Assembly (NCBI RefSeq): GCF_032854445.1
Contig: NC_088295.1
Coordinates: forward strand, 8,000,501 to 8,064,500
Length of the DNA: 64,000 bases
Direction: 5' to 3'
From: Liolophura sinensis
Lineage: Eukaryota > Mollusca > Polyplacophora > Chitonida > Chitonidae
The notes beneath the pieces are model-generated. The model made no database searches and was not told where the DNA came from. It saw nothing but the letters and a program-made list of their open reading frames with translations. The translations under genes and the position numbers were made by a program. Every line of letters starts with the position of its first letter. The stretch's first letter is position 1. This document shows, piece by piece, positions 635-60,600 of this stretch.

Positions 635-3600
635 GTTGGGATCCTGGATGTTGACCTGTGTGGACCAAGCATACCACGTATGTTAAATGTGGTTGGGAAG
701 GATATCCATCAGTGTTCAGAGGGGTGAGTAGCCTATATGTCGTGTAGATAGCTGTACATTTCAGTGTGTAGAAGGGTTAGTGGCATATATGAGTAAGGTG
801 TGAACAGCTGTACATTTCAGTGTGTAGAAGGGTGAGTAGCCTATATGTGTAAGGTGTAGACAGCTGTACATTTCAGTGCGCAGAAGAGTATTTATTATTT
901 ATTTGATTGGTGTTGTATGCCATACTCAAGAATATTTGACTTACACAACGGCAGCCAGCATTATGGTAGGAGGAAACCAAACCACAGAAGAGTAGGCTAT
1001 ATGAGTAGGTATGTAGATTGGTCAACACTTCAGTCTGTGCAAGGGTGAGCACTTCTAGTCAGTGGCTGTACACTTCAGAACATGTGCAGAAATCCAAAAT
1101 CACCACAGTTATACTTTTTTTTCTGTAGTGTTTAAGCTGATCAGCTGGTCTGCTGTGTGTTGCTATTGGCTTTGTCATTGTAAAAGCTTTATATCAGGTG
1201 TATGCTCAAGAAGTTCAGCTGAGGAGTGTGTAATTAGCTAATAAATTGTATTTATAACGCCTTAGGGAAAAGAGTTATACATTGTTTGGTGGTGATCAAC
1301 TTAATTCAGAATTGTTTTTACTTATGTCAGGTGGGTGCCAGTGTTTGCCGACAAGGAACAGCGACTGGGAGTGATGTCTATCTCATTCCTACTCCAGGAA
1401 GAAGACGATGCCATCATTTGGAGGGGACCAAAGAAAAATGGTCAAACACCAACATTAAACTCCCCTCAAAAGATTTCAAACTATCTCTAATATCCTGTGT
1501 ACACCAGAAATGGTATCTGCTACTAGTACTGATATGAACTTGAGTTTATTAAAGGTTTTTATGACAGTTCCAAATTGAGAAAGAGTAAAAGCTAAAAAAA
1601 GAGAAAGAGTGACTTAGTTGAATGGGCTGAAATAAAAGGAGGAAACAAAAAGAAATTGATGACAGTTAAAGCACTTGTTTCCCTATATTCATATGCACTG
1701 ACTGTAGAGATTTATAATTAGTATTGCTACTATGATTTGGTGCATATTTATATATATAATATAAGGCACTACTTTCAGGTTTCTAAATAAATGTGTATGA
1801 AAAGGGTGCCCAAATTAGAAAGCTGTATTGGACCCTGGTCAGCTCTTGTTTTAAGTTCAGGAGATTTGGATGGGGAAATTGTAGATCCTCCCCACCTCCA
1901 TCACTCAGTATTCCTGGGACTTTGGCAATAATCAGTTGACATCCTTCATGTGGCCATTCAAGCAATCTAGCATTCACTGAAGATCACTTGTCTTCCAATA
2001 TTGTTTACATACCTGTACATGTATCTGAATTCACACGTGGGAAAGTTTGTCAGTAACTTGCCAGTGATTCATGGTTTACACCGAGTACTTGAGTTTTGTC
2101 CAATCATAAAATTAACCGTCATTGTGCAAGCTCAAAAGCACTTGAATATTGCATAGCGCAACAATCATATAAGTAAAATAAATAAGTAATCTTGCCACTT
2201 TTTCACCCATAAACCTTACTGCCGTTAGTGTTACACACCTATCAAATGAGTCAGTGAATATGAATTGATGATTGGGTTTGTGGATTTCAGAGAAGTGCAG
2301 AAAATCATAGTGTATCTAATATATGTTTTCATTTCCCTTTTGTGTATGTCCCAGCTATGATCAAGCAGTTTCTGGGGGATGTGTATTGGAAGGACATTGA
2401 CTACCTGGTGATAGACACCCCACCTGGAACGTCAGACGAGCACATCACGGTTGTGGAGACATTGAGGGGTTACAACCCAGATGGAGCTATTGTAGTAACC
2501 ACTCCTCAGGTATGCTGCTCATCACTTCAGCTATTGTAGTAACCAATCCTGCTCATCACCTCAGCTGTTGTAGAAACCACTCCTGCTCATCACCTCAGCT
2601 GTTGTAGTAACCACTCCTGCTCATCACCTCAGCTGTTGTATTAACCACTCCTGCTCATCACCTTAGCTGTTGTAGTAACCACTCCTGCTTATCACCTCAG
2701 CTGTTGTAGTAACCACTCCTACTCATCACCTCAGCTATTGCAGTAACCACTCCTGCTTATCACCTCAGCTGTTGTATTAACCACTCCTCAGGTATGCTGC
2801 TCATCACCTCAGCTACTGTAGTAACCAATCCTGCTCATCACCTCAGCTGTTGTAGAAACCACTCCTGCTCATCACCTCAGCTGTTGTAGTAACCACTCCT
2901 GCTCATCACCTCAGCTATTGTAGTAACCACTCCTGCTTATCACCTCAGCTGTTGTATTAACCACTCCTCATGTATGCTGCTCATCACCTCAACTATTGCA
3001 GTAACCACTCATCAGGTATGCTGCTCATCACCTCAGCTACTGTATTAACCACTCCTCAGGTATACTGCTCATCACCTCAGCTACTGTAGTAACCACTCCT
3101 CAGGTATGCTGCTCATCACTTCAGCTATTGTAGTAACCAATCCTGCTCATCACCTCAGCTGTTGTATTAACCACTCCTACTCATCACCTTAGCTGTTGTA
3201 TTAACCACTCCTGCTCATCACCTCAGCTGTTGTAGTAACCACTCCTGCTTATCACCTCAGCTGTTGTATTAACTACTCCTCATGTATGCTGCTCATCACC
3301 TCAACTATTGCAGTAACCAATTATCAGGTATGCTGCTCATCACCTCAGCTACTATATTAACCACTCCTCAGGTATGCTGCTCATCACCTCAGCTACTGTA
3401 GTAACCACTCCTCAGGTATGCTGCTCATCACCTCAGCTACTGTAGTAACCACTCCTCAGGTAAGCTGCTCATCACCTCAGATATTGTATTAACCACTCCT
3501 CAGGTATGCTGCTCATCACCTCAGCTACTGCGATAACCACTACTCAGGTATGCTACTCATCACCTCAGCTACTGTATTAACCACTCCTCAGACATGCTGC

Positions 3601-6600
3601 TCATCACCTCAGATATTGTATTAACCACTCCTCAGGTATGCTGCTCATCACCTCAACTATTGTAGTAACCACTCCTCAGGTAGGCTGCTCATTACTGTAG
3701 TAACCACTCATCAGCTATTGTAGTAACCACTCCTCAGGTATGCTGCTCATCACCTCGGCTATTGTAGTAACCACTCCTGCTCATCACCTCAACTGTTGTA
3801 GTAACCACTACACCATGTTGTGTCTGCTCATCACTTTACCATGTTGTGTCTGCTCATCACTTCACCATGTTGTGTCTGTTCATCACCTCACCATGTTGTG
3901 TCTGTTCATCACCTCACCATGTTGTGTCTGCTCATCACCTCATCATATTGTGTCTGTTCATCACCTCATCATATTGTGTCCGTTCATCACCTCATCATGT
4001 TGTGTCTGCTCATCACCTCACCATGTTTTGTCTGCTCATCACCTCACCATGCTGTGTTTGTTCATCACCTCGCCATGTTGTGTCTGTTCATCACCTCACC
4101 ATGCAGTGTATGGTCATCACCTCACCATGTTTTGCCTGCTCATCACCTCACCATGTTGTGTCTACTCATCACCTCACCATGTATCTGTTCATCACCTCAC
4201 CATGTTGTGTCTGCTCTTCACCTCACCATGTTGTGTCTGCTCATCACCTCACCATGTTGTGTCTGCTCATCACCTCACCATGTTGTGTCTTATCATGACC
4301 TCACCTTGTTGTGTCTGTCTGCATTTACAGTATTTGCCCTAAACATTCTCCTGAAGAAGAGCATTTTAATTTGTAGAAAATAAAAAAAATAAATAAACAA
4401 ATAAAATATTACTTTGGTACTGAATCTTTGCTCGAGTAGAGCATCATCCTACACTCAAAACAAACAAGAAAACCCCCTTCTGAGATCAATTTAGTATTAA
4501 CCTCAGGTCACATAGTGTACTTGACCTGCTGACTCTGATGAAACAATAATAAAAGCTGGTGATAGTGCTAACTGTTTAAGATAAAAACTTACATTTTTTA
4601 CCTGTTATGTAGCTCTGAACAAAAGTTGACTTGTCTTCCTCCTGAAGGGAGGTTTTCTGTGCAGAAAACCACATGTAATCACAGCTAGATCATAATGAAG
4701 TATCTAGTATAGATCCTGTATTTGACCACAGTTAACAAACCTCTTCCGTGATACCTTTTGGATGGCTATAACCATTTACATTTAATGTACATGTTTTCTG
4801 AATTTATATTTTTCAGGCTGTGGCAATTGGTGACGTCAGAAGGGAGCTGACATTCTGTAGAAAAACTCACATTCCTGTTCTCGGCCTTATCGAGAACATG
4901 AGTGGCTTTATCTGTCCTAATTGCTCTGTAAGTTTACTTTCTTGTAACACATAAGTGCCCTTATTTTGTGTGTATGTAATTATTGGGAAGATTTCATGAG
5001 AAATATGATTTGATTGTTTTTTTTTCATTGTTGCTTCAAAACCATACTTCGGAATTTTTCACTTAGATTATGGTCACCATTATATTAGGAAACTGGAGTG
5101 TGCAAGGAAACTGCTAATTATACTCATCCACTGTTCCATGAATGACATAAGTGATTATGGGGCATGGCGATTTGTACGATTTTTTGGGTCATTTAATTTC
5201 CCTTGTATAGATGATACATGTACAGGTACAACATAAATTAGATACAGTTGGGTCCCTTGAAGCCGGACTTGTAAAATCGGCATGCAAGATAAGCCATTGA
5301 TGATGTAATGATTTGAAGCATGATTTGGTGTGTGTATCAGTTTGTTACAGTGTTGCAATTAGCAAAACAATGGCCCAGGAGCCTATGTGGTCGCTGTGAA
5401 TTCTCAGTTCCAGCTCATGCGGGCTTCCTCTCCGGCCGTAAGTGGGGGTGGGGGTGGGGGGGTTTTGTCAGCAGGGATCCTGCTCTACCTGGTTTCTTCC
5501 CACCATAATGCTGGCTGTTGTCAATCAAATAAATAAATCAGTATGTGGGTATGATTTTTTTCCCTTAGGAATGCACCAATGTCTTCTCGAAAGGAGGTGG
5601 GGAAGCTCTAGCTAAACAGTTCAGTATTCCGTTCCTAGGTGAGTCCCCTTAACAGTTATGCTAGGTAATTGAGCCTCGTTGAGCAGCCTCCTTTGAAGCC
5701 ATACTCCTATATAAAAGGCACACTTCTTGGAGTTTGCTTACCATACCTTCTCAATAATTAGACACTGGCTGACTGAGACACCTTGAGAGTAAGCGGGTAG
5801 ATCAGAGGAGTCTCCCACTAGGTGCTCACAGCAGGCGCTATCAGCATGCCAACTGGAGTATAGGCCTGACCAGCCCTACATCTATAAAGCCAGTTTTTCC
5901 CGCCAGCTTTTATGCACGCGTCAACTCACAGTGTCCGTTTTCAGTATATACGCTTGATTAAAAAGTAAAAAAAAAAAACACTCACCATGCCGTTTTTTCT
6001 GGCTGTGTTCTACAAACTATACTATCTGATATTTAAAGTACAATGTAGATGTTTGTGCGGCATTATTTACAGAGGAACATTTGATGCCCCACCGCATTGG
6101 GCATTATATCCGCAAGATTGTCGTGAATCTACCAACCTCTTGTCTTCCTCCCCACTTGTGTATGGGGCCTATGTAAGAAAGGAACATTGATGATTGCCGT
6201 TTGATCATTGGATGAGCAATGTTGCCTTACATGTGTGGATAAAACACCTTTGACAGTAAGGCATGAATTCCTGACACATAGGCAGTGTTTCCATTGATTA
6301 CTGACCAGGTGTCTATTTTGGCGGGAACATGACATACATGTGACAGCTAGTCTCATTGAGGAGGGAGAGCAGACGGGGGCCACAACTTTTTTAGATTACT
6401 TTAAAGGATACATGAAAAGGAACTATATAACAAAGATTATGTTTCTGTACCAAATGAAGAAAATAATGCCTCGGAATGTTTGTTGAAAAAAAGTCATTTT
6501 GGGGGTATTTTTATACCCCCTGTTAATTGTCCCTCTATATTAAGCATATTTTCAATCCAAGGTCAGATTTTTTCCGAAATTACTATATCGTTGAACTTGC

Positions 6601-9600: not shown

Positions 9601-10422
9601 GGGTACATTCTATCATACATGTAGCTTGAACTGAACATTGGCATCATGGCACTTCTCTCACCAGTTTCTTGACTCTCAGTGATCTACCTTCTTTTAGCTT
9701 TTTCTAGCTTCTTTCAGCTTTTTCTCTTTGTACCTTCTTCAAAAAAACAAACATTTGTTGCAGTTGTGATGTGTTTGTTACCTTGGGATGATATTTCTCG
9801 CAAGAGAAAGTTCCTCTGGTGACAGTGTCATGCATCCAAAGCATTTATAGTTATGTGGCATTACATCACATGTTGTTTTGACAAGGGAGCTAATTCTGTG
9901 GAGCCTTTTCACGCTGTTTTGAATTCTGGTATCTGTGTGTTATGATTACCAAACTTTATCAGTGTTACATTATTAATAAGGCTGTCTATGGTGTTTTCCA
10001 GAATCCATCCCAGTTCAGAACTTTAAAACCCATTTAATGATTTGTGTATTATTTTTCCAGGCTTGTCCTATTTTGTGAATCCACTTATGTGTTTAGTTCT
10101 CAGGCTGTATACCTCTTTGTGTCTTTATGCTTTACAGCTTATGTGTTAAGCTTGTCAGGCTGTCTTCCACTTTTTATTGTGTTCTACAATTTACAGCTTA
10201 TGTGTTAGATTTTACAGGCTGTATTCCACTTTTTGTTGTGTGTTTTTATACTTTAGAGTTTATGTGTTGTGTTTTTCAGGCTGTATTCCACTTGATCCAT
10301 TGTTAGCCCAGAGCCTGGAGAAGGGAGAGAGTTTTGTGGACACCTTTCCACAGTCAGCCACTCGAAAGGCCTTCATGGAAATTGTAGACAGACTGGTCGC
10401 TGTGGAGAAAGATTACCCGTAA
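635..10422 (+). CDS. NUBP2: Cytosolic Fe-S cluster assembly factor NUBP2, 3' six coding exons (5' end outside window)
   Basis: Exons at 635-723, 1331-1440, 2355-2509, 4817-4927, 5569-5638 and 10280-10422 join in frame to 225 codons plus TAA, each bounded by AG and GT. The product reads from [16 protein letters not shown] through [50 protein letters not shown] and [14 protein letters not shown]. This is the Mrp/NBP35 P-loop NTPase family, and the sequence is closest to NUBP2 rather than NUBP1. The family acts as a cytosolic scaffold, with NUBP1, for assembling and handing over 4Fe-4S clusters. The Cys pair in CPNC is the known cluster-bridging motif, and [10 protein letters not shown] is the switch/Walker-type segment. 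The N-terminal P-loop exon is absent and should lie left of base 1. Three tandem arrays occupy its introns, two of them containing copies of the gene's own splice junctions. A likely poly(A) signal follows at 10824. Confidence 0.93.
889..985 (-). mobile_element. SINE family A 3' fragment (minus orientation)
   Basis: TATTTATTTGATTGGTGTTG, then a CATACTCAAGAATATTTGAC-like segment and CAGCCAGCATTATGG, match the reversed 3' part of family A, with the tail repeat first. It is a 5'-truncated copy in a NUBP2 intron. Confidence 0.55.
2490..3810 (+). repeat. Minisatellite copied from the 3' end and donor of NUBP2 exon 2355-2509
   Basis: The unit is about 44 bp and reads GTAGTAACCACTCCTCAG then GTATGCTGCTCATCACCTCA. 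The first part is the last coding bases of the exon ending at 2509, and the second is the start of its intron. A shorter unit of about 35 bp lacks the CAGGTATG core and is interspersed. By eye about 14 copies keep a CAG-GT donor-like junction, for example near 2788, 3101, 3369, 3412 and 3501. One near 3457 reads CAGGTAAGC, closer to the donor consensus than the real site. The array begins at the real junction and extends only into the intron. Confidence 0.9.
3811..4322 (+). repeat. 26-bp minisatellite in NUBP2 intron
   Basis: About 20 copies of a 26-bp unit of the form CACCATGTTGTGTCTGCTCA followed by TCACCT. It follows directly on the preceding array and shares its CTGCTCATCACCTCA segment, so it probably arose by expansion of one variant end unit. 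Because 26 is not a multiple of 3 and the unit has no plus-strand stops, it is open in all three plus frames (apparent proteins of 150-200 residues). These are not genes. Confidence 0.9.
5383..5540 (+). mobile_element. SINE family A fragment (plus orientation)
   Basis: The stretch has the family A body: GGTCGCTGTGAATTC, a CTCATGCGGGCTTCCTCTCC-type segment, CCCACCATAATGCTGGCTG and a CAAATAAATAAATC tail. It lies in the NUBP2 intron just before exon 5569-5638. The tRNA-like head is mostly missing and the middle holds a G-rich expansion near 5444-5463. Confidence 0.6.
6515..7872 (+). repeat. 113-bp satellite array in the last NUBP2 intron, 12 copies
   Basis: Twelve head-to-tail copies of a 113-bp unit beginning TGTTAATTGTCCCTCTATAT and ending in a CGGTGAACACCCC(C/T)GAAGTACC segment. 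Copies differ at only a few recurrent positions (CCAAGG or CCAGGG, TTACTA or TTATGA, CCCCCG or CCCCTG). One copy near 7420 lacks two bases. The array breaks off at 7872 into unrelated sequence. The 66-residue open frames in each copy merely reflect the periodicity. Unlike the other NUBP2 arrays I find no exon sequence in the unit. Confidence 0.95.
10052..10296 (+). repeat. Tandem duplicates of the last NUBP2 acceptor and exon start
   Basis: Units of 55-62 bp each contain a pyrimidine-rich stretch, an AG and a copy of the first bases of the last exon (GCTGTATTCCACTT). Decoy exon starts fall at about 10104, 10159 and 10218; the real exon starts at 10280. Each unit also contains a TTATGTGTTA segment. 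The array sits wholly on the intron side with the real acceptor as its final unit. Confidence 0.85.
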
Positions 10423-10823
10423 TATGAATACAGTTGTCTGTTTAATACTACACATTCCTGACTGCAAAGTACATGAGTGTATGTGTTAGAAAAGCTTTTT
10501 ATCACTGGTGAAAAATTCATATTAAGATGAATTCACCATTGCACTTTGTAGTTTCTGTTTGGTGCATTCAACAACTGAATTGGAGTGGCATAAGCTTTGA
10601 TTCTTATAGATGTTGTCAAAGTTTTAAATCACATACTCACACATTGCCGTTCGGCTGAATGCTGCAGGTTGGTACTAGAATATTGCATCTTGTGAAGGAC
10701 ACTAAAAGACGGTCAGGTGCTAATTTGCCATGACAGATGTAGAAGTCCATACTGCCGATACAGTATGGGCCCGAAGTCTTCGTTTCTCACCCCTTGGTGG
10801 ACCCTATTACTAATCTTGGATGG

Positions 10824-10829
10824 AATAAA
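10824..10829 (+). terminator. Candidate poly(A) signal of NUBP2
   Basis: AATAAA about 400 bases after the NUBP2 stop, the first canonical hexamer I see downstream on this strand. Position and motif are the only evidence. Confidence 0.4.
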
Positions 10830-15333: not shown

Positions 15334-15391
<58 letters not shown>

Positions 15392-15686
15392 TGTGTGTGT
15401 CATAGTGATCACAATTCTACACACATACATGTATATAGGACAGCTTTAGTCTGGACTAAGTAAACTTGATTCTCACAGCACAGGCCAAGTAAGAACTGAG
15501 CACATGTTCATGATTATTATAATATATTGCATTGATCCACAAGAACTAAAGTCCTCATTAAAAACTACCAACATACACTGTAGCCATACTGAACAATGAC
15601 AGCATTGTGACCTGGCATTCCATACATGATAATCACAACCAAAGAAGGGGACTGAGGCATGGACTGGGTTTGCACTGCTGCCATGT
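10830..15686. other. Convergent intergenic region, no gene seen
   Basis: AT-rich sequence between the 3' ends of NUBP2 and the ABCA gene. The open frames present are short and show no recognisable protein or splice-site framework. It holds a degenerate repeat of about 50 bp with CTACATGTA and TACCTCAA motifs around 13030-13270 and an AT dinucleotide run at 15337-15388. Confidence 0.6.
15337..15388. repeat. (AT)n microsatellite
   Basis: An uninterrupted AT dinucleotide run of about 50 bases followed by a short GTGTGTGT run. Confidence 0.95.
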
Positions 15687-15692: not shown

Positions 15693-15746
15693 GATCAGTT
15701 GAGTATGAAGAAGTCTTCTTACCCATACTGTGCTGTGTGAGTCTGA

Positions 15747-18700
15747 TCATGAACAAAGGAGTCTGCATGGCCCACAGCACCCTGGTTCCTGCTCCACAGG
15801 GGGCACCTGTGAGCGTGCCAAGCTGATAAAGACCAGTTCCAACGTAGTTTGACTTACAGAGTAATCCTCAATATGGTACCTAGACTTAGCCCGTTCCATC
15901 GTGCCGAAGATCTCGGCCCAGGTCATCGTGGTGGTGTGCACGTGGTAGTGTACCATACCTTCGTGATGGTCCTTGAGAACGCTTCCAGGGAATGTCTGCT
16001 GGATGAAGCCCATGATAGGGCCCACATCTGGCTCTTTGCCTCCTACAGGGTAAGCCAGTTTCACAATCAGCGTGTAGCCCTCGCCAAACTTGGCCTTCAG
16101 GTGTTGTGGACTGCCCAAGCACTTAAACTGGCCATTCACCATGATGGCCAGACGTGTACACAACGCTTCACACTCTTCCATGCTGGTGGCAATATAAGAT
16201 TAACATTATTTAATTTGAATTTAGAAACATCACATATCAATAATAATATACCATGTAATTTATGACTGGTCAAGTTATATTGAGAGGCACAAACTGTTCT
16301 CTACACGTTGTATGCTGTACTCCTGTTATAAGTGTTCACAAAAGACGCTGTCATCTAATGAGAACAAAGCAAGAAAAATAAGTGAGTTTTGCCAACTTTA
16401 TTACATTGTGCTGCTAGCTGCAGTGTATCTAAAATTACCTTTTATGTTTTGACAGAACCACAGGTAAATGTTTTAAACTTGGATTTTATAACGAGAGCTT
16501 TCTTAACCATACTGAGCGCGAGTGAGTGCTTGGGGTTTAACGTCGTACTCAACAATTTTTCAGTCATATGACGACGAAGGAATCCTTAGGATGCATGCAC
16601 GTGTAATGTGCCTCCTTGTTGCAGGACCGATTTCCACCGCTCTTTAATTAGTGCTGCTTCACTGAGACGACTTACCGAAGGCAAGTAAGCCGCTCCGCCC
16701 GAGCCATTATACTGATACGGGTCAACCAGTCGTTGCACTATCCCCTTCATGCTGAACGCCAAGCGAGGAAGTTACAACTTCCTCTTTTAAAGTCTTAGGT
16801 GTGACTCGATCAAGGATTGATCCTGGATCTACCGGTCCCGAAGCGGACGCTCTACCAACCGTGCTATCCGGGCCGGTCTTAACCATACTGATCAAGTTTG
16901 TAGAGAGTAATGTAGGATTGAGTTGCAACGCCAAAAATCCTAATGTTAACCCACCTGTGTGAGGTGAGAATGAGCGTGCGGCCACTGTCCCTCACTCGGG
17001 TCAGCGTGTTCCACAGGAGGCGGCGTGCCACCGGGTCCATGCCAGTTGTTGGTTCATCCAGGAACACAATCGGAGGATCTCCCACCAACGCTATGGCTGT
17101 AGATAGCTTCCTCTTGTTTCCTCCACTGTGAAATGGACAACAGACAGACATAAATTACTGAAATTTAGACAGATGTTCTGAAATAATCTAATGAGCAGGT
17201 TTATTCTGTAAACTATACTTTGTTTGCCTGGTCCCTTGTTTGCTTGCACATTAACTTATCTGAGCCGTTGCATTTACAATGTAGAGGATTCCATGGGTAG
17301 CTGACTTCCACTAGTCCAGCAATGCAGCCAAGCCATTCAATACTGCACAATGACCCCTTAAGCCTTTCACCAATGCAACTACTGTGAGTTTAAGTCTAGC
17401 GGCTTGTATTTGGGAAGGTCTACCAGCAACCTGTGGATGGTTGTACATGTAGGTTCCCCCCACCCAAACTTCCTCAGACTTCATGACCAGCCAACCATCG
17501 TCATTAGCCAGAATAAAAAAGAAAGAGTTCACCACTAACCAACCTTTTTATTTCTGATAGGGTAAAGTTAAGCCTAACAAAGTATTTTTACAAGATTGCT
17601 TCACAGCAACATGTGTGTGTAATGTCTTTTTGGTATTGACTGCCTGAAGCATAGAGTCAAGTGCACTCTCAACTTTTTCACATGGTGACTAGTCTTCTGG
17701 AACATATGTAGTAATTCACAAACATATCAGTTAGCACTAGTTCTGTAAAAGTGACTTCCATGTACGGCTGAGTAGGCCAATAGATCTGTTTTACACTGAC
17801 CTGTAATGTTGGGCCAGCTTGTCTGCATGCTCCTCCAGTAACAATGATCGGATCAGTGCATCTACCACAGCTGGGATCTGCTTCTCTACCACCCCACGTA
17901 GACGTGCAAACATGGTAAGTGTCTCTCGTCCAGTCAACTGATCAATCAGTGCATCAAACTGTGGGCAATACCCAATCTTCTGTTGAACCTGTACAAAGTA
18001 CATGTGAGAATGTTTCATCAGAAATATTCACACACAATTCACATCATTACTGATCCATCACTGTATCACACTTAACACAATGCCCAAGCTTCTGCTGAAC
18101 CTGTACAAAGCACATGTGAGAATGTTTCATCAGAAATATTCACACACAATTCACATCATTACTGATCCATCATTGTATCACACTCAACACAATGCCCAAG
18201 CTTCTGCTGAACCTGTACAAAGCACATGTGAGAATGTTTCATCAGAAATATTCACACACAATTCACATCATTACTGATCCATCACTGTATCACACTCAGC
18301 ACAATGCCCAAGCTTCTGCTGAACCTGTACAAAGCACATGTGAGAATGTTTCATCAGAAATATTCACATACAATTCACATCATTACTGATCCATCACTGT
18401 ATCACACTCAGCACAATGCCCAAGCTTCTGCTGAACCTGTACAAAGCACATATGAGAATGTTTCATCAGAAATATTCACATACAATTCACATCATTACTG
18501 ATCCATCACTGTATCACACTCAGCACAATGCCCAAGCTTCTGCTGAACCTGTACAAAGCACATATGCGAATGTTTCATCAGAAATATTCACATACAATTC
18601 ACATCATTACTGATCCATCACTGTATCCCACTCAGCACAATGCCCAAGCTTCTGCTGAACCTGTACAAAGCACATATGGGAATTTTTCATCAGAAATATT

Positions 18701-21700
18701 CACACACAATTCACATCATTACTGATCCATCACTGTATCACACTCAGCACAATGCCCAAGCTTCTGCTGAACCTGTACAAAGCACATGTGAGAATGTTTC
18801 ATCAGAAATATTCACACACAATTCACATCATCACTGATCCATCACTGTATCACACTCAGCACAATGCCCAAGCTTCTGTTGAACCTGTACAAAGCACATG
18901 TGAGAATGTTTCATCAGAAATATTCACACACAATTCACATCATTACTGATCCATCAGTTTATCACACTCAACACAATGCCCAAGCTTCTGTTGAACCTGT
19001 ACAAAGCACATGTGAGAATGTTTCATCAGAAATATTCACACACAATTCACATCATTACTGATCCATCAGTTTATCACACTCAACACAATGCCCAAGCTTC
19101 TGTTGAACCAGTACAAAGTACAAACATATTATTATTATCTGTACAGTTCCTCAGATAAAAGTAGGATTTCTTAATATTAAAAACAAAAAGTTTTGATTTT
19201 ACATGTAAGAGCATTACACAGGAAGTATTCATACCAGATCCATGTTATTACTAAAATAATGTTGTAAAGATATTACTACCTGTATTTAAAAGAAAGTACA
19301 TATTTTTCCTAAATGTTAAACTTACAGTTTTGATGTTTGTCTGCACATTGCTGCCATCTACATGGACATTGCCATACGTAATTGTTTCATCTCCAGTTAT
19401 CATCTTAAAGGTGGTGGTTTTGCCTGCCCCATTGATGCCCAGCAAGCCAAAGCACTCTCCCTGAGGCACCCCCAATGTAATCTGGTCGACAGCCAGGTGG
19501 GAACCGGAGCTGTACATTTTAGTGAGATCCTTCAGAATAAGGGAGTCTGTCCAGGGAGCGTTAGCTATTCGGGCTCTCTCCCTAGCCACGTCCTCATCCT
19601 CCTGTATCACTTCCCCCATCTCCCCCTCCCCAGTCTGCCTCACTAGGGTCAACCGTGGCCTCAGTTTGTACCACAGAGTAAGCAGGACCTCTGAATCTAT
19701 AATCAGCACCAGGGTGAAAAACAAAACCCCCTGTGCAAAGAGGAACACCAACTCTCTTCCTATTCCATCCGCCTCCCATGCCAGGTAGTTCTCCTGGTAG
19801 TGGAAGCAGAATTCTGTGCAGTGATCTGTGAACAAAGTCCATAAAACACTGTTAAAAAGCATAGAAAAGTGGTAATCACACACACTAGAAAAAGCTAAAT
19901 TTTTATTTATGATGCAAAAACTTTGATTTATTTATATATTTGATTGGTGTTATAATGTACTCAAGAATATTTTATTTCTACAACCCTGGCAAGCATTATG
20001 GTGAGAGAAAACCGGCTCAGGGAAACCTGTGACCATCCACAGCAGACCTTCCTACATACATGTACATGTACCAAGGGGCAGGAAGCCAACGTGAGCTCGG
20101 CTAAAAACTACGCCATGGAGGCCCCGCCAATACCTTGATATGTACATTTAGGAATATATACTTAAAACCAGCTCAACTACAACTACCGACACTGAACTGT
20201 AAATGTCAAAGTAAGGTGTGAAGTACAAATAATTCCTCCTCACTCTGAAAACATCTCCCAACCTGCTCACAAAACCTATCAAATTCAAATTGATACAGTG
20301 AATTACCTTTGCAGCATGGAGTGGCCACAAAAGCACAGATGAGTTTGAGCTTATCTGGAGGTATGCTGCCACATATGGAGAGGCCCTGATAATTGGTGTA
20401 GTAATCAATGAGGCTTTGTCCCAGACAGAAGTTGGGCAAGATGGCAAGGAACACCCACTTAAGAGCAGTAGACAAGTACTCCAGTTGTAACTGGGGGATA
20501 CTCAAGATACCAACAGCAAGAGTGGTGGCAACACCTGGGAATGACAAATAACACACATGCCGGATGAAAATCACAAATGCAAAAGATTTCACAAGGAATA
20601 CAAATCAATTTAAATGATCCACAGGAAAATATACTGAGCTTGGCCAAACCTTGTGTTTCTCTCTTCTCATTTTTCAGGCTAACACTACTTGTGTATTATG
20701 TTAAACTGATCAGTGCAACTACACATTTAAGTTCAACCTGCTTAAACACCACTGTTCAACAACGTCAATGGTATATTTATTATCTGTATACTCAAATCAT
20801 TAAGTGCAACAAGCCCTAAGCAATCATGCTTCCTCATCCATGAAATTGGAAGTGATGTCTTTTGCCTTAGACTATGGGACCTACCTGAGAGGATGTTAAA
20901 CATGCTGAGCCATACAAGGCCTGAAGAGGGCACTGTGAAGATGAAGGACAGGAGGTACATGAAAGGCAGCATAGCCCAGCCATACAAAAAAAACAGTAGT
21001 AACATGTGCAACCAACGCCCATCATTCACAAGCGCCTTCATATCAAAGGCTGCAAATGCTGCAATGATCAGCAGGGAGGGAATCAGGAAATTTATCATGT
21101 CCCAGCAAAAGGTAGATATCCAAAAGTTTATCGAATGAACTCCGCTAACAAACTGAATATGCTTGGCCTTGGTGGCCCTTTCTTTCACCAGGAAAAGAAC
21201 AAAGCTGCTGGCAAGGAAAGACATTCCAAACATCAGGTTAAAAGAAATAGTAAAGCCAGTAGTTTCCTTGGTCAGTTCGTCCTGAGCTTTGTCATTCAAC
21301 GTTCTTGGCAGAGGATGGTTTATGGTAGTCATGGAGTAGGACGTATTGGTGAAATACTTGAGAGAAGCATTGGCTAACACAGCCAGGGTCATTCCTGGGG
21401 TATGGTAAGCCTGGTTGTTGAAGAAGGCAGTGGCTTTAACCAGAGAGTCACTGGTATTTTCTATAGCTGCAGCCACCATGAAGTGACGATTGTAACTGGC
21501 AAGGGCCTTCACACCGCGAGCAAACAGATAGTTCATCATATCTGGGTCTGTTCTGTAGCCTGTCTGATTGTTCAGGAAGAGCACCTTGGAGGAACAGTTT
21601 TTCAGCTGATGCCTGTAAAAATCTGCTAACTGTTTACTGTCATTGTCTGCAAAACGGCCCAAGGAGTAGACAATGGTGTTTTCTGAAAACCTGTCGGGGG

Positions 21701-33886: not shown

Positions 33887-33889
33887 TTG

Positions 33890-46250: not shown

Positions 46251-49200
46251 TTACCACATGCTCTTGTCATTAGCCCCTGGGTCCTCGAGTGTATCATCAG
46301 TCATTGCCACACAACGATTGTCCATTTCCTGTTCAGAATACACAACCTTTTCTTCTTTATCACTTCTACCCCTATTCTCTTTACTCTCCTCCGCTACAGC
46401 AACCTGCCTGTGTGCCCTCTCCTGTAGTCGTGGTGAACTTCGTGCGACGCTTTCATCCGAAAATGACCGTTCTTGCTCTGCCAGGTGTGTGATGACGTCA
46501 ACAGGTTCGGAGGTGTTGTCTGGTGTGCTTGGTTCCTGCTCTGACAGCTCTATCGGGTCGCCGATATCAACGTAGGGTACCTCCTTAGTGGCCCTGATGA
46601 TCCTCTGACAATACACATCCTCAAACTTGATTGGATCCCTGTCATGTTCCCTGAAAACCAACATTAATATATGTACATATGAGAATAAAGCTAGTGTTTT
46701 ACTCCAGTACTGATGAAGATCGAATACAGTAATACAGGTGTTAGGATCAGTGTATCAGTCAAGACAATCACTGGATGCACCCTTTTATTTGTTTTATATA
46801 GGCACATACAATTATTGTAAAATGGAGTACCAACACTGGAAAATATTGGTTTCACTGAAATGAAGTCATACATGAGTTTTCAGAGGTACATGGACTGCTA
46901 ACAATTCTTAGATGCACAAAGCTATACTGGCAGGGGGAGGGTACACCAAAAGGTTCCTCACCTGTTGTATGTACAAAGCTATGCTGGCAGGGTGGGGTAA
47001 TGGGAGTGGTATATCACCTTTTGTATACAGACACAGATATACTGGCAAGGTGGGGATACTGGTAGTGGTATCTCACATGTTGTATATTGACACGGCTATA
47101 CTGGCAGGATGGAGTACTAGGAGTGGTATCTCACCTGTTGTACATGGACACAGCTATACTGACAGGATGGGGTACTGGGAGTGGTATCTCACCTGTTGTA
47201 TATGGGCAGAGCTATACTGACAGGATGGGGTACTGGGAGTGGTATCTCACCTGTTGTATATGGGCAGAGCTATACTGACAGGATGGGGTACTGGGAGTGG
47301 TATCTCACCTGTTGTACATGGACACAGCTATACTGGCAGGATGGGGTACAGGGAGTGGTATCTCACCTGTTGTATATTGGCAGAGCTATACTGGCAGGGT
47401 GGAGTACTGGAAGTGGTATCTCACCTGTTGTACATGGACACAGCTACACTGACAGGATGGGGTACTGGGAGTGGTATCTCACCTGTTGTATATGGGCAGA
47501 GCTATACTGACAGGATGGGGTACTGGGAGTGGTATCTCACCTGTTGTATATGGGCAGAGCTATACTGACAGGATGGGGTACTGGGAGTGGTATCTCACCT
47601 GTTGTACATGGACACAGCTACACTGGCAGGATGGGGTACAGGGAGTGGTATCTCACCTGTTGTATATGGGCAGAGCTATACTGGCAGGATGGGGTGCTGG
47701 GAGTGGTACCTCACTTGTTGTATATGGACACGGCTATACTGGCAGGATGGGGTACTGGTAGTGGTACCTCACCTGTTGTATATGGACACGGCTATACTGG
47801 CAGGATGGGGTGCTGGGAGTGGTACCTCACTTGTTGTATATTGACACGGCTATACTGGCAGGATGGGGTACTGGGAGTGGTATCTCACATGTTGTATATG
47901 GACATGGCTATACTGGCAGAATGGGGTACTAGGAGTGGTATCTCACCTGTTGTATATAGACATGGCTATACTGGCAGGATGGGGTACTGGGAGTAGTATC
48001 TCACCTGTTGTATATAGACATGGCTATACTGGCAGGATGGGGTACTTGGAGGAGTATTTTGCCAGCTATGCTGGCAGAATGGGGTACTGGGAGTGGTATC
48101 TCACCTGTTGTATATGGACACAGCTATACTGGCAGGATGGGGTACTGGGAGTGGTATCTCACCTGTAGTATATGGACACGGCTATACTGGCAGGGTGGGG
48201 TACTGCGAGCAGTATCTCACCTGTTGTATATGGACACGGCTATACTGGCAGGGTGGAGTACTGGGAGTGGTATCTCACCTGTTGTATATGGACACGGCTA
48301 TACTGGCAGGGTGGAATACAGGGAGTGGTATCTCACCTGTTGTATATAGACACTGCTATACTGGCAGACTGGGGTGCTAGGAGTGGTATCTCACCTGTTG
48401 CATATAGACATGGCTATACTGGCAGGATGGGGTACTGGGAGTGGTATCTCACTTGTTGTATGTGGACACGGGGTACTGGGAGAGGTATCTCACCTGTTGT
48501 ATATGGACACAGTTATACTAGCAGGATGGGGTACAGGGAATGGTATCTCACCTGTTGTATATAGACACTGCGATACTGGCAGGCTGGGGTGCTAGGAGTG
48601 GTATCTCACCTGTAGTATATGGACATGGCTATACTGGCAGGCTGGGGTGCTGCGAGTGGTATCTCACATGTTGTATATGGACACAGCTATACTGGCAGGA
48701 TGGGGTACTGGGAGTGGTATATCCCCTGTTGTATATGGACACAGCTATAGTGGCAGGATGGGGTACTGGGAGTGGTATCTCACCTGTTGTATATGGACGT
48801 GGCTATTCTGGCAGAATGGGGTACTGGGAGTGGTATCTCACCTGTTGTATATGGACACGGTTATACAGGCAGGGTGGAGTACTGGGAGTGGTATCTCACC
48901 TGTTGTATATGGATACAGCTATACTGGCAGGATGGGGTACAGGGAGTGGTATCTCACCTGTTGTATATGGACGTGGCTATTCTGGCAGAATGGGGTACTG
49001 GGAGTGGTATCTCACCTGTTGTGCATGGACACGGTTATACTGGCAGGGTGGAGTACTGGGAGTGGTATCTCACATGTTGTATATAGATACAGCTACACTG
49101 GCAGGGTGGAGTACTGAGAGTGGTATCTCACCTGTTGTATGTACAAAGCTATGCTGGCAGGGTGGGGTAATGGGAGTGGTATATCACCTTTTGTATACAG

Positions 49201-52200
49201 ACACAGATATACTGGCAAGGTGGGGATACTGGTAGTGGTATCTCACATGTTGTATATAGACATAGCTATATGTGGTGCTGGGAGTGGTCTGTTGTATATA
49301 GATACAGCTACACTGGCAGGGTGGAGTACTGAGAGTGGTATCTCACCTGTTGTATGTACAAAGCTATGCTGGCAGGGTGGGGTAATGGGAGTGGTATATC
49401 ACCTTTTGTATACAGACACAGATATACTGGCAAGGTGGGGATACTGGTAGTGGTATCTCACATGTTGTATATTGACACGGCTATACTGGCAGGATGGAGT
49501 ACTAGGAGTGGTATCTCACCTGTTGTACATGGACACAGCTATACTGACAGGATGGGGTACTGGGAGTGGTATCTCACCTGTTGTATATGGGCAGAGCTAT
49601 ACTGACAGGATGGGGTACTGGGAGTGGTATCTCACCTGTTGTATATGGGCAGAGCTATACTGACAGGATGGGGTACTGGGAGTGGTATCTCACCTGTTGT
49701 ACATGGACACAGCTATACTGGCAGGATGGGGTACAGGGAGTGGTATCTCACCTGTTGTATATTGGCAGAGCTATACTGGCAGGGTGGAGTACTGGAAGTG
49801 GTATCTCACCTGTTGTACATGGACACAGCTACACTGACAGGATGGGGTACTGGGAGTGGTATCTCACCTGTTGTATATGGGCAGAGCTATACTGACAGGA
49901 TGGGGTACTGGGAGTGGTATCTCACCTGTTGTATATGGGCAGAGCTATACTGACAGGATGGGGTACTGGGAGTGGTATCTCACCTGTTGTACATGGACAC
50001 AGCTACACTGGCAGGATGGGGTACAGGGAGTGGTATCTCACCTGTTGTATATGGGCAGAGCTATACTGGCAGGATGGGGTGCTGGGAGTGGTACCTCACT
50101 TGTTGTATATGGACACGGCTATACTGGCAGGATGGGGTACTGGTAGTGGTACCTCACCTGTTGTATATGGACACGGCTATACTGGCAGGATGGGGTGCTG
50201 GGAGTGGTACCTCACTTGTTGTATATTGACACGGCTATACTGGCAGGATGGGGTACTGGGAGTGGTATCTCACATGTTGTATATGGACATGGCTATACTG
50301 GCAGAATGGGGTACTAGGAGTGGTATCTCACCTGTTGTATATAGACATGGCTATACTGGCAGGATGGGGTACTGGGAGTAGTATCTCACCTGTTGTATAT
50401 AGACATGGCTATACTGGCAGGATGGGGTACTTGGAGGAGTATTTTGCCAGCTATGCTGGCAGAATGGGGTACTGGGAGTGGTATCTCACCTGTTGTATAT
50501 GGACACAGCTATACTGGCAGGATGGGGTACTGGGAGTGGTATCTCACCTGTAGTATATGGACACGGCTATACTGGCAGGGTGGGGTACTGCGAGCAGTAT
50601 CTCACCTGTTGTATATGGACACGGCTATACTGGCAGGGTGGAGTACTGGGAGTGGTATCTCACCTGTTGTATATGGACACGGCTATACTGGCAGGGTGGA
50701 ATACAGGGAGTGGTATCTCACCTGTTGTATATAGACACTGCTATACTGGCAGACTGGGGTGCTAGGAGTGGTATCTCACCTGTTGCATATAGACATGGCT
50801 ATACTGGCAGGATGGGGTACTGGGAGTGGTATCTCACTTGTTGTATGTGGACACGGGGTACTGGGAGAGGTATCTCACCTGTTGTATATGGACACAGTTA
50901 TACTAGCAGGATGGGGTACAGGGAATGGTATCTCACCTGTTGTATATAGACACTGCGATACTGGCAGGCTGGGGTGCTAGGAGTGGTATCTCACCTGTAG
51001 TATATGGACATGGCTATACTGGCAGGCTGGGGTGCTGCGAGTGGTATCTCACATGTTGTATATGGACACAGCTATACTGGCAGGATGGGGTACTGGGAGT
51101 GGTATATCCCCTGTTGTATATGGACACAGCTATAGTGGCAGGATGGGGTACTGGGAGTGGTATCTCACCTGTTGTATATGGACGTGGCTATTCTGGCAGA
51201 ATGGGGTACTGGGAGTGGTATCTCACCTGTTGTATATGGACACGGTTATACAGGCAGGGTGGAGTACTGGGAGTGGTATCTCACCTGTTGTATATGGATA
51301 CAGCTATACTGGCAGGATGGGGTACAGGGAGTGGTATCTCACCTGTTGTATATGGACGTGGCTATTCTGGCAGAATGGGGTACTGGGAGTGGTATCTCAC
51401 CTGTTGTGCATGGACACGGTTATACTGGCAGGGTGGAGTACTGGGAGTGGTATCTCACATGTTGTATATGGATACAGCTATACTGGCAGGCTGGGGTGCT
51501 AGGAGTGATATCTCACCTGTTGTACATGGACACAGCTATACTGGCAGGATGGGGTACTGGGAGTGGTATCTCACCTGTTGTACATGGACACGGCTATACT
51601 TGCAGGGTGGAGTACTGGGAGTGGTATTCACCTCTGGTATATGGACAAAGCTATACTGGCAGGGAGTGGTATCTCACCTGTTGTATATGGACAGAGCTAT
51701 ACTGGCAGGGTGGTGTACCGAGAGTGGCATTCACCTGTTGTATAAAGACACTGCTATACTGGCAGAATGGGGTACTGGGAGTGATACCTCACCTGTTGTA
51801 TATGGACAGAGCTATACTGGCAGGGTGGTGTACTGAGAGTGGCATTCACCTGTTGTATATAGATACTGCTATACTGGCAGGCTGGGGTACTGGGAGTGGT
51901 ATCTCACCTGTTGCATATGGACACAGCTATTCTGGCAGGGTGGGCTACTGGGTATATTTTATTTATTGATTTATTTGCTTGATGTTTTACGCCGTACTAA
52001 AGAATATTTCACTTATACAACGGTGACCAGCTTTATGGTGGGTGGAAACCGGGCACAACTCGGGGGAAACCCACAACCATCCACAGCTTGATGGCGGTCC
52101 TTCCCACGTACGGCCGGAGAGGAAGCCAGCATGAGCTGGACTTCAACTCACAGCGACCGGCCCGGATAGCACAGTTGGTAGAGCGCCCGCTTCGGGACCG

Positions 52201-55200
52201 GTAGATCCAGGATCAATCCTTGATCGAGTCACACCTAAGACTTTAAAAGAGGAAGTTGTAACTTCCTCGCTTTGGCGTTCAGCATGAAGGGGATAGTGCA
52301 ACGACTGGTTGACCCGTATCAGTATAATGGCTCGGGCGGGGCGGCTTACTTGCCTTCGGTAAGTCGTCTCAGTGAAGCAGCACTAAATAAAAGAGCAGTG
52401 GAAATCCGTCCTGCAACAAGGAGGCACATTATACGTACATGCACCCTAATGATTCCTTTGTCGTCATATGACTGAAAAATTGTTGAGTACGACGTTAAAC
52501 CCCAAGCACTCACTCACTCACTCACTCAACTCACAGCGACCGCATTGGTGAGAGGCTCCTGGATCATTACGCTGTGCTAGCATGCTAACCAACTGAGCCA
52601 CGGAGGCCCCTCTGGGGTACTGGGAGTGGTATCTCACATGTAGTATATGGACACAGCTATGCTGGCAGGGTGGAGTACATGGGGGTTGTATCTAACCTGT
52701 TGTACATGGACATGGCTATACTGGCAGGGTGGAGTACTAGGGAGTCGTATCTCACCTGTTGTATATGGACACAGTTATACTAGCAGGATGGGGTACAGGG
52801 AGTGGTATCTCACCTGTAGTATATGGACACGGCTATACTGGCAGGGTGGGGTACTGCGAGCAGTATCTCACCTGTTGTATATGGACACGGCTATACTGGC
52901 AGGGTGGAGTACTGGGAGTGGTATCTCACCTGTTGTATATCTCACCTGTTGTATATGGACACGGCTATACTGGCAGGGTGGAATACAGGGAGTGGTATCT
53001 CACCTGTTGTATATGGATACAGCTATACTGGCAGGATGGGGTACTGGGAGTGGTATCTCACCTGTTGTACATGGACACAGCTATACTGGCAGGATGGGGT
53101 ACAGGGAGTGGTATCTCACCTGTTGTATATGGACACGGCTATACTGGCAGGGTGGAATACAGGGAGTGGTATCTCACATGTTGTATATGGATACAGCTAT
53201 ACTGGCAGGATGGGGTACTGGGAGTGGTATCTCACCTGTTGTATATGGACACGGCTATACTGGCAGGGTGGAATACAGGGAGTGGTATCTCACATGTTGT
53301 ATATGGATACAGCTATACTGGCAGGATGGGGTACAGGGAGTGGTATCTCACCTGTTGTATATGGGCAGAGCTATACTGGCAGGATGGGGTACTGGGAGTG
53401 GTATCTCACATGTTGTATATGGACACAGCTATACTGGCAGGATGGAGTACTGGGAGTGGTATCTCACCTGTTGTATATGGACACGGCTATACTGGCAGGA
53501 TGGGGTACTGGGAGAGGTATCTCTAGTCTTTGACATCTCAGTTCATTTCTCACTGGTTTCCATGGGTGAAGGCGGCGTCTGTCAAAATACACACATGCCA
53601 TACTTTATACATTGAATTGTCATCAAAATAAGAGATTGCATTATTTAACAAGTCCATGTTATATTCTCACTAAAGTGTTCAAATTATCTCAAGTGCTTAT
53701 TCACAGCCAAGGGACATAACCCAAAGGAGACAAGTGACATCTGATCCTACACACATGTCAATGTATATAATATTGTACCGGTAGACACTGAAAATATTCC
53801 AATCTGCATCCTATGGAACATTTTATGTTCACACATGTAAAACATGCTAGCTTACCTCAGGGCTCTGTTACTTGTATGGTCACCTTTCCTTTGGCTAGGG
53901 TTGAAAATAGACTCATCTAGATAAGGGGCAGCCACTGAAATGTCACCTGTCCAAGAGAAAGCACTTTTCATTGTATACAAACTATTACATAGAGAAAAAT
54001 CCACATACAAAAGAAACTTATTAGTTTGTCATTTTCCTGATGCAAAAGTATTTAACTTTTCATGATATTGTCAAACTGGTACGTCATATGCACAGGTTCT
54101 TGGCAATGTGAGTAACCCATGTATATATAAATTTTATTGAGATTTCACACTACACTCAAAAAATATTTCCCCTGCATAAAAGGTCACCCATATGGTTGCC
54201 TGTGCTCTTCTATGTTGTTACATATCATCATGATACATTGTATCCATTTGACAGCTTCTGTATGGTCACTGTACATTATCCAAGTGATCACTGGACTATC
54301 ACACTATCCACCTCATCATGATACCCACCTGAAGGCCTGTGTGCAGCTATCACACTATCCACCTCATCATGATACCCACCTGAAGGCCTGTGTGCAGCTA
54401 TCACACTATCCATGCACCTCATCATGATACCCACCTGAAGGCCTGTGTGCAGCTATCACACTATCCACCTCATCATGATACCCACCTGAAGGCCTGTGTA
54501 CAGCTATCACACTATCCATGCACCTCATCATGATACCCACCTGAAGGCCTGTGTGCAGCCATCACACTATCCATGCACCTCATCATGATACCCACCTGAA
54601 GGCCTGTGTACAGCTATCACACTATCCATGCACCTCATCACGATACCCACCTGAAGGCCTGTGTGCAGCTATCACACTATCCACCTCATCATGATACCCA
54701 CCTAAAGGCCTGTGTACAGTTATCACACTATCCACCTCATCATGATACCCACCTGAAAGCCTGAGTGCAGCTATCACACTATCCACCTCATCATAATACC
54801 CACCTGAAGGCCTGTGTACAGCCATCAAACTATCCATGCACCTCATCATGATACCCACCTGAAGGCCTATGAACAGCTATCACACTATCCAGGTCATCAT
54901 GATATTCTCCACTCTCTAACATGTGCAAGTAACGGCCTAAATTCAGATGTTCCACCTTTAATAAACAAACACATAAGAAAAAAATGTCCATATTAGTATG
55001 ACCAAATGATCAAATCTTAGCAAGTGTATACACAGACGTATAACAATTCTAAAAACAGACATGATCACACACGTACCTCAATCAGAGGTTGTTGACAAAG
55101 TGCTACATGTAAGGAAAACAAACATGTATCCAACACCAAATACCTCTTGGCACAGTTGCACAGGACAGTTTACATTGTACAGTTATTGAGACGCAGGCCC

Positions 55201-57656: not shown

Positions 57657-57698
<42 letters not shown>

Positions 57699-60600
57699 CG
57701 ACCAAGTTATACAAGCTAATCTATAACATTCAAGCGGAATCACACTTTAGAGTGTCAAAACTAATCACTTCCAACGATAAATACATCAATTTCACAAAAT
57801 CACAGAGTGATGGTAAACTAAAGGTATCTTTATGTTGGAAACATTTAATACTGGTGGTCTTCACGAATATCCAGTGTATCCAGTTTTGCCTCCCCTAACC
57901 TCCATGTTTCTTTTTAGACAGAGATCTGTCAAATCCGGTTAAACCAACTTATTCAGGTAATGCCCAAGTTTGTACCTACCTTCAGTTCAAAGTGGTTGTC
58001 AGTCTCTTCCAGTGGCACCAAAAACGAGTTGGAAAATATCTCCATGAATAGTTTACAGGCTAATCCTGCAAAAACAAAGTAAGTGGAACTTTCTAGTCTT
58101 CAGAAAATACTTTCTGTATGTCTTCAGAAAGAATGACAAAACACGGAAAGCAAATTCAGGTAAAGCTTCTCCTGTAAAACCCAAATTTATTTATTTATTT
58201 ATTTGATAGGATTAAACTCTGACACAAGAATAGGAGAGCAATCAGGTGTAGGATGATGGAAATTGCTCAGTGCTCAGAGTAAACCAACCACACTGTTAAG
58301 TAGTTGTCGTAGAGAAAATTTGCTACACCTGCTGTTAAACATATAAGAGGATGGGCTTCTGTAATAAACAGTTTGAATGATACTGCATGCATCTCTACAA
58401 TGTACATGAATCTTTCCACATTCTGCATTAAACTTACATGACAATGATCTATGTACATGACAACACTCTAACAAAATATACATATATCTCAGCTATGCCT
58501 GACCTTTCCAGTCTTTAGCTTCTAGCTGTTGTTTCTCCCAGAACTCTGCCTCTGTCCCAGGTAGTCTGCTCAAAATATGAACAGGGTAAAATGCCTCCAG
58601 AAGCTTAGCAGCTGAGGATACCACCATCTGAAATATTGTACAGAGCTTATAGGCTGAGGATATAACAATATGAAATATTGTACATAAGCTTACCTGTAGA
58701 TGATACCACCATCTGAAATACTGTACACAAGCTAAGCAGCTGAGGACATTACCATCTAAAATATTGTACACAAACTTAGCAGCTGAGGATAGTGCCATCT
58801 GAAATATGGTACAGAGCTTATAGGCTGAGGATAGTGCCATCTGAAATATGGTACAGAAGCTTAGCAGCTGAGAATACTGCTATATGAAATATTGTACATA
58901 AGCTTAGCAGCAGACGATATCACCATCTGAAATATTGTACAGAGCTTACAGACTGAAAATACTGCCATCTGAAATATGGTACAGAGGCTTAGCAGCTGAG
59001 GACACCACCATCTGAAATATTGTACAGAAGCTTAGCAGCTGAGGACATCACCATCTGAAATATTGTACAGAGCTTACAGACTGAGAGTACTGCCATCTGA
59101 AATATGGTACAGAGGCTTAGCAGCTGAGGACACCACCATCTGAAATATTGTACAGAAGCTTAGCAGCTGAGGACATCACCATCTGAAATATTGTACAGAG
59201 CTTACAGACTGAGAATACTGCCATCTGAAATATGGTAAAGAGACTTAGCAGCTGAGGATATCACCATCTGAAAAATTGTACAGAAGCTTAGCAGCTGAGG
59301 ACATCACCATCTGAAATATTGTACAGAGCTTATAGGCTGAGGATACTGCCATCTGAAATACTGTACAGAGACTTAGCAGCTGAGGATATCACCATCTGAA
59401 ATATTGTACAGAAGCTTAGCAGTTGAGGATACCACCATCTGAAATACTGTGCAGAGTTTATAGGCTGAGGATACCTTCATCTGAAATGGTAAACAGAAGG
59501 TTAACTGCATAAGATACCATCATCTGAAATGGTGTACAGAAGCTTAGCAGCTGAGGATACCACCATCTGAAATACTGTACAGAACTTATAGGCTGAGGAT
59601 ACTGCCATCTGAAATATTGTACACAAGCTTAGCAGCTGGGGATACCACCACCTGAAATATTGTACTTAAGCTTAGCAGCTGGGGATACCACCATCTGAAA
59701 TATTGTACACAAGCTTAGCAGCTGAGGATACGGCCATCTGAAATATTGTACAGAGCTTACAGGCTGAAGATACCGCCATCTGAAATATTGTACACAAGCT
59801 TAGCAGCTGGGGATACGGCCATCTGAAATATTGTACACACGCTTAGCAGCTGGGGATACCACCATCTGAAATATTGTACAGAGCTTATAGGCTGAGGGTA
59901 CCACCGTATGAAATATTGTACAGAAGCTTAGCAGCTGATGATACCGCCATCTGAAATACTATACAGACACTTAGCAGCTGAGGACACCACCATCTGAAAT
60001 ACTGTACAGATAATAGCTGTTGAGGATTCCACCATCTGAAATATTGTACAGAACCTTAGCAGCTGAGGATACCGCTATCTGAAACTGTATAGGTATGAAC
60101 ACTGTCCATACATAATCATCCAACACAGGTAAACACTACCAAACATGACCAGTGAACTTGACTGTCGGAATATAGAATTACAATTCAGGGACAAATGTGA
60201 GGAAAACTCATTGTAGAACTACAGGCAAATAGATTTCCTATCAAATAAATGAATATGCTATGATATGCTGCTGGAAAATCGTAAGTTTCAGTTCAAAAAA
60301 TAATATTTAAAAAATGCACTTTTGTGAGCGAAATTTTAGGTCATTTAAGGTAATTTGGACAATGGATTCACTGTTACACAGAGCAGCTGGATTCTGTGGT
60401 CTTATTTTGAAATTATTCACATACGTTGTATTGTCATGTGAGCAAAATAATGCAAGACATGCAAGCATTAATCTACTGTGGAATCATAGAAAATGGTAGT
60501 GTTTGGCACAGTGTGCAACTTGAATGCTGACCATACTGATCAATCAACCATGCCCACGGCAGACAGCTCAAACTGAACATGATGGTGGTCACTGAGTGAA

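Follow-up and report, generated by a model that had tools for sequence, protein, structure and literature searches.

How does an exon edge, together with its splice site, come to be repeated in tandem within its own intron, and how does a gene live with the result? The question is raised by a 64,000-nucleotide stretch of the genome of the chiton Liolophura sinensis (contig NC_088295.1 of assembly GCF_032854445.1, positions 8,000,501 to 8,064,500; hereafter the window), in which tandem arrays border exons of NUBP2, of an ABCA3-like gene and of a Lips-like gene. Many intron arrays here appear to be copies of the adjacent exon edge, splice site included, with the real exon as the outermost copy. 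Judged by the sequence, a gene seems able to hold spare splice sites by the dozen, as good as the real one, and to ignore them. On balance, we think it probable that these are ordinary minisatellites, born locally, that captured an exon edge and are tolerated since the outermost splice site is used, with extra growth or persistence on top.

Junction-Spanning Arrays in the Window

Arrays were called with Tandem Repeats Finder (TRF), merged, and considered at a period of at least 15 and a score of at least 100; the exon edges of the window arrays were located by reading the sequence and by exact string. Nine merged arrays were obtained, and in seven of them a splice junction lies inside the repeat unit. 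By TRF these consist of head-to-tail units of minisatellite length, each array at one locus:

W1, 709..886, plus strand: NUBP2 donor, last exon base 723; 56-bp unit, 3.2 copies, about 15 exonic bp per unit
W2, 2485..3809, plus strand: NUBP2 donor, last exon base 2509; 44-bp unit and a 34-bp variant, 33 copies found, 25 exonic bp per unit
W3, 10117..10293, plus strand: NUBP2 acceptor, first exon base 10280; 59-bp unit, 2.9 copies, 14 exonic bp per unit
W4, 17937..19122, minus strand: ABCA3-like acceptor, exon start 17988; 112-bp unit, 10.6 copies, 52 exonic bp per unit
W5, 54296..54904, minus strand: donor of the Lips-like gene, last exon base 54859; 51-bp unit, 11.5 copies, 46 exonic bp per unit; exon placed by reading frame only
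W6, 58598..60084, minus strand: acceptor of the Lips-like gene, exon start 58627; 43-bp unit, 34 copies found, 30 exonic bp per unit
W7, 46957..53523, minus strand: donor of the Lips-like gene, last exon base 53468; 58-bp unit, 104 copies found, 56 exonic bp per unit; exon placed by reading frame only

Exact-string placement makes the terminal unit the true exon edge in all seven, as the initial annotation of this stretch had proposed for the five arrays that it named. TRF returned each of those five at its place, with units that cross the junction; the count itself was too low, as W1 (709-886) and W7 (46957-53523) had been overlooked. The two arrays without a junction lie at 6514-7872 and 28691-28806.

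The name NUBP2 follows the label in the initial annotation, together with CFD1, which we take to be the yeast counterpart. The W1 exon matches Pfam ParA (PF10609, E 4.6e-7), and the W2 exon matches the same family (E 2.5e-19) as well as yeast CFD1 (PDB 6g2g) up to its last residue; the match of the W3 exon to PF10609 is weak (E 0.0096) and below the curated cut-off. The ABCA3-like gene matches PDB 7w02 (E 7.5e-126). Its W4 exon, starting at 17988, corresponds to ABCA3 residues 1475-1536 in that structure (E 9.1e-27), and the match of the preceding exon ends at residue 1474. The last gene belongs to the Lips family (PF25228, E 1.3e-19), with a match that runs across the W6 acceptor join at 58627. 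The donors of W5 (54859) and W7 (53468) were placed by frame continuity through consensus splice sites only.

Two arrays have a visible internal history. The 34-bp variant, which lacks the donor stretch, makes up much of W2 (2515-3280), and many W2 copies are therefore without a donor. A 26-bp array at 3811-4317, directly behind W2 and merging with it, has CTGCTCATCACCT in common with the W2 unit and was apparently born from part of it. W7 occupies most of its intron, ahead of the exon starting at 46650 in the Lips-like gene (46-63 kb). It is interrupted at 51953-52612 by sequence that resembles, by eye, a dispersed short element of other introns here, and a block of about 2.15 kb (46952-49105) is repeated within it at an offset of 2385 with 99.8% identity; either the array expanded recently by a large step or the assembly duplicated the block.

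Recurrence in Two Samples of the Same Genome

The genome was sampled twice more, by protein family and blind to repeats; the two samples comprise 41 loci, 296,627 bp and 32 gene stretches. Sample 1 covers genes with TCP1, cullin or adaptin domains (29 loci, 227,318 bp, 124 exons supported by a hidden Markov model (HMM) match, 247 edges), and sample 2 covers myosin heads (12 loci, 69,309 bp, 49 exons, 98 edges). The HMM matches used were 124 of 140 and 49 of 83, respectively, the rest falling outside the cut stretches or in uncut genes; two matches with several stops were excluded from the exon list. Before any outside sequence was seen, it had been fixed which arrays would count and that the control would be their random placement within non-coding sequence.

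Sample 1 contains 52 merged arrays, of which 12 span an exon edge and three abut one, and sample 2 contains 19, of which nine span an edge. Together, 21 of 71 arrays span an edge (periods 25-140), and they occur in 16 of the 32 gene stretches. Sixteen of the 21 sit at HMM-supported exons and occupy 4.6% of the 345 edges supported in this way. The other five are at exons without an HMM match (L009, L018, L029, L036 and the array at 4391 in L040), for which reason the edge count was scaled by 1.0-1.6 in the expectations below.

Eight of the spanning arrays in sample 1 were classed by script and confirmed by reading; the other four (L009, L013, L018, L029) and all nine of sample 2 were classed by reading, by a reader not blind to the question. 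Reading removed two of the 10 arrays that the script had called as spanning in sample 1. Among the rejected candidates, L006 8553-9095 only abuts its exon, the true acceptor being nearer to it; L006 7274-8444 begins 12 bp into the intron; L009 2089 and L017 3380 only abut; and L016 7217, L010 7498, L029 1 and L039 5490 lie about 13-40 bp inside introns. Merged pieces (L017 1689, L004 2818, L005 1, L034 1083) were removed before the count.

Excess over Chance

The initial annotation had suggested comparison with random placement. In sample 1 a naive version of this check gives no excess; a seed-unit and a constrained version, run on both samples, show one. The seed-unit null assumes that the first unit arises uniformly, so that the expected number of spanning arrays is the period times the edges divided by the bases. 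It predicts 2.8-4.5 arrays against the 12 seen in sample 1 and 1.3-2.1 against the nine seen in sample 2; pooled, the expectation is 4.1-6.6 against 21 (Poisson P 3e-9 to 6e-6). Seeding driven by GC content was rejected as the cause: non-junction arrays have a GC of 0.41 and introns 0.37, which raises the expectation only from 3.9 to 4.9 with the edges as found, or from 6.3 to 7.9 with 1.6 times the edges. In the constrained control each real array was placed within its own locus, at most one period into an exon and with no exon swallowed. At HMM-supported exons it yields 3.9-4.2 against 16 seen (2.3-2.5 against nine in sample 1; 1.6-1.8 against seven in sample 2).

The initial annotation had read its five arrays as the outcome of a shared process. 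As a phenomenon this stands, being recurrent and above chance in two samples by both measures; the mechanisms proposed for it, which are taken up below, find no support.

Local Origin of Two Arrays

A whole-genome DNA search, in which very common words were skipped, was run for two of the seven window arrays. Both W4 and W7 match only their own arrays, which points to local birth rather than to a mobile family; no copies elsewhere, as a dispersed or transposable family would have, were found for these two. Among the best 40 of 243 candidates for the W2 region, the matches outside the window all fall in query bases 15-189, ahead of the array. The bases before W2 are thus a dispersed element, and the W2 array itself is matched only within the window among the scored candidates.

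The non-junction array at 6514-7872 has a 113-bp unit, with units 97% identical. Its unit matches at least 39 places elsewhere, over about one unit each (best 40 of 256 candidates), which indicates a dispersed element that was amplified here.

As to the neighbouring genes, SPSB3 in the window matches 8okx (E 2.1e-74). It lies together with NUBP2 within positions 1-46650. Both genes also lie together on human 16p13.3, and the NUBP2-SPSB3 neighbourhood is possibly an old shared gene order.

Birth or Growth at the Junction

If a local mutational hotspot (transcription, R-loops or exon chromatin) seeded duplications at junctions and exon ends, with events in the exon interior purged, short arrays should be the nearest record of the seeding step. 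Arrays of fewer than six copies span a junction in only 4 of 29 cases, against 1.8-2.9 expected, which is not significant. Among arrays of at least six copies 17 of 42 do so, against 2.3-3.7 expected (Fisher p 0.018 for the difference; the six-copy cut was chosen after the table had been seen), and the share is highest at 12 or more copies (12 of 25). Spanning arrays are also longer than the others (median 532 bp versus 256 bp, p 0.018); in copy number the two groups do not differ significantly (median 13 versus 6, p 0.14). Since the excess is confined to arrays of at least six copies, it looks like preferential growth or survival and not preferential birth, a distinction that four short arrays do not make firm.

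The density of arrays near the edge speaks for a hotspot at donors. Spanning arrays reach about 1.45 per kb there and 0.46 per kb at acceptors (assuming 1.3 times the HMM-supported edges), and the near ends of non-spanning arrays stay at 0.07-0.34 per kb at every distance from the edge, donors and acceptors together. Acceptors are thereby only about twofold above background. The fraction of the unit shared with the exon ranges from 0.24 to 1.0, with a mean of 0.62 (n = 28; seven window and 21 sample arrays). This somewhat exon-rich composition would suit a hotspot, and a mild skew in this direction is possible; with the three abutting arrays included, the mean is 0.57 and the distribution does not depart from uniform (Kolmogorov–Smirnov (KS) p 0.14). 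As the junction varies in position within the unit, there is no fixed break at the splice site, nor any preferred breakpoint relative to it. The suggestion in the initial annotation that duplication is seeded at junctions is therefore not borne out, and we regard a hotspot as rather unlikely to be the main cause.

Copied Splice Sites

Arrays could also be kept or expanded by selection for spare sites, either as back-ups or as U1 snRNP platforms that shield long introns from premature polyadenylation. Copies were aligned for 20 arrays (361 copies; the seven window arrays and 13 from sample 1, the abutting L006 8553 among them; the nine myosin arrays were left out). The splice dinucleotide, GT or AG, is intact in 287 of the 335 copies that cover it. 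Compared with the other dinucleotides of its unit it is more often intact in 12 arrays and less often in eight (Wilcoxon p 0.81). The copied splice sites thus decay like the rest of the unit, neutrally, which gives no support to the selection for redundant splice sites that the initial annotation had listed among its mechanisms. Many sites have been lost in S12 (5 of 16 intact), in S10 (13 of 24) and through the 34-bp variant of W2. On the side of selection are very high copy numbers with intact donors, as in W7 (98 of 100 copies), the peak of the spanning share in the largest arrays, and a bias towards donors: 16 donor against five acceptor arrays in the samples (p 0.027), and 20 against eight with the window included (p 0.036). 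Taken together, maintenance by selection for spare sites appears improbable.

Site strength was scored with a matrix derived from the sample's other exons. The score of the true donor is equalled or exceeded by 68 of the 98 intact decoy donors in W7, by 12 of 15 in W2 and by 10 of 10 in S1. Among the acceptor arrays, no decoy reaches the score of the true site in W3, W4, S3 and S6; 26 of 31 do so in W6, eight of 23 in S9 and the single decoy in S11.

Less Probable Readings: Array-Rich Introns or Intron Birth

The simplest account would be that no special process is at work and that introns are so rich in arrays, which make up 14% of the first sample, that some of them touch exon edges. The naive control, in which whole arrays of sample 1 could land anywhere in their locus, agrees with it, expecting 13.0 ± 2.8 spanning arrays where 10 were seen and 21.9 ± 4.7 touched edges where 10 were seen. 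Array cover in sample 1 also grows farther from the edge: it amounts to 4% at the junction and reaches 12% at distances of 700-1200 bp. The naive control, however, allowed landing in exons and so was looser than the control set beforehand; it was not kept as the main null because its arrays may swallow whole exons, which selection forbids. The excess in the constrained placement, and the seed-unit excess in both samples, including the later sample 2, make this account very improbable.

Least probable of all is that the arrays record intron birth or donor sliding, with exonic tandem repeats partly turned into intron: the unit is almost wholly exonic in W5 (0.90), W7 (0.97) and S12 (1.0), so that the donor may have slid by one unit there, lengthening the exon in W5 and W7, but most of the 20 measured units carry a good share of intron sequence, and the far-end exon of W7, compared by eye in this array only, has no likeness to the unit.

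Probable Capture and Toleration of Exon Edges

We return to the capture of exon edges by ordinary minisatellites. The explanation builds on direct observations, namely the anatomy of the arrays, the local origin of W4 and W7, the free position of the junction, the neutral decay of the copies, the donor excess and the excess at six or more copies. Slippage or repair duplication across a junction would produce exon-intron-exon-intron copies. Splicing would stay with the outermost copy, for donors the one furthest upstream and for acceptors the one furthest downstream, which gives the shortest exon. Such a duplication would be tolerated because outermost-copy splicing leaves the protein unchanged, and the array would be free to grow on the intron side alone, as expansion into the exon alters the protein. 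Sole use of the outermost site is what we infer from open reading frames and homology. Spare donors downstream of the first donor would be late competitors once transcribed, and spare acceptors, which precede the true acceptor on the route scanned from the branch point to the AG, would be early competitors. Donors may be captured more often because spare acceptors, competing early, would be more often purged.

The excess of large arrays would call for something further, either a slower loss by deletion, since deletions that reach the exon are harmful, or growth that is favoured at the edge; the repeated 2.15-kb block of W7 illustrates how large the steps of growth might be. Tentatively, junction arrays of this genome may be more apt to expand or persist when a 5′ splice site in use anchors them, through a link to transcription or splicing (U1 binding, R-loops or the constrained exon copy), leaving about 5% of exon edges with a row of decoys, many of them at full strength. 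The remainder would be selection acting on random duplications, and exon-anchored arrays would grow or last longer than free intronic ones.

Several results weigh against the capture explanation. Toleration alone predicts no excess, yet junction arrays are over-represented three- to fivefold (2.7-4.3-fold after GC correction). The naive control finds rather fewer spanning arrays than expected, and the seed-unit null was adopted after that result, being written down before sample 2 was taken. Stronger true acceptors than decoys, compared with donors, are a non-significant trend (Mann–Whitney p 0.12). Finally, when the three abutting arrays are set aside, junction positions depart from uniform in favour of exon-rich units (KS p 0.019).

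Should splicing never draw on the inner copies, these introns would demonstrate on a large scale that the site nearest across the exon wins over rivals of equal strength, W7 and its decoy donors being the example; ordinary genes rarely show this. If growth of the arrays is truly favoured where a splice site is in use, this would tie splicing to repeat instability, an open question for disease repeats, and preferential growth at used donors would make the set of arrays a natural test of position versus strength in splice-site choice. The arrays are also a warning for gene predictors and RNA aligners, as such introns contain many false splice sites.

Comparison with Known Systems

Tandem duplication as a source of introns is reportedly known from a potato study (PMC4974935), and Zhuo (2007) is said to have described exonic tandem repeats partly turned into intron. 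In Drosophila, PMC2891723 describes introns gained when exonic sequence containing a proto-splice site was duplicated in tandem. The likeness to these systems is that tandem duplication copies splice-competent sequence; there, however, duplication creates a new intron, whereas here an existing intron is enlarged. Exon and intron sequence are both present in most of the 20 units, W5, W7 and S12 coming closest to intron gain.

The open-licence PMC literature yielded no report of a genome-wide excess of arrays that carry an exon edge, and the available portion of PMC3778950 contains nothing bearing on such arrays. The initial annotation knew of no named class for them. This holds as regards a genome-wide account, none having been found, and it does not hold for the structure, as two systems of the same kind are described in PMC6627357 and PMC2812944. 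In intron 7 of human factor VII (F7), which carries 37-bp repeats, splicing uses the 5′ splice site furthest upstream and no other (PMC6627357). The likeness is close: repeats that bear a splice site, with the exon edge as terminal unit, a structure present in 7 of 7 window arrays and 21 of 71 sample arrays. F7 is one human gene, whereas the chiton arrays occur in many genes, at donors as well as acceptors, with copy numbers that can exceed 100 and with an excess that was measured, and use of the outermost site is deduced. De Grassi and Ciccarelli (2009) described variable internal tandem repeats at exon-intron boundaries of human segmental-duplication genes, also found with TRF and about 30 bp long on average (PMC2812944). 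The units are likewise of minisatellite length and lie at exon-intron boundaries; their system concerns recent human paralogs, alternative splicing and new introns, whereas the chiton arrays are in conserved families, leave the exon intact and hold decoys that outnumber the true site. Since boundary repeats are known from F7 and from these human genes, and no report of a genome-wide excess of them was met in the open-licence PMC literature, the exon-edge arrays of L. sinensis are best seen as a variant of a known phenomenon.

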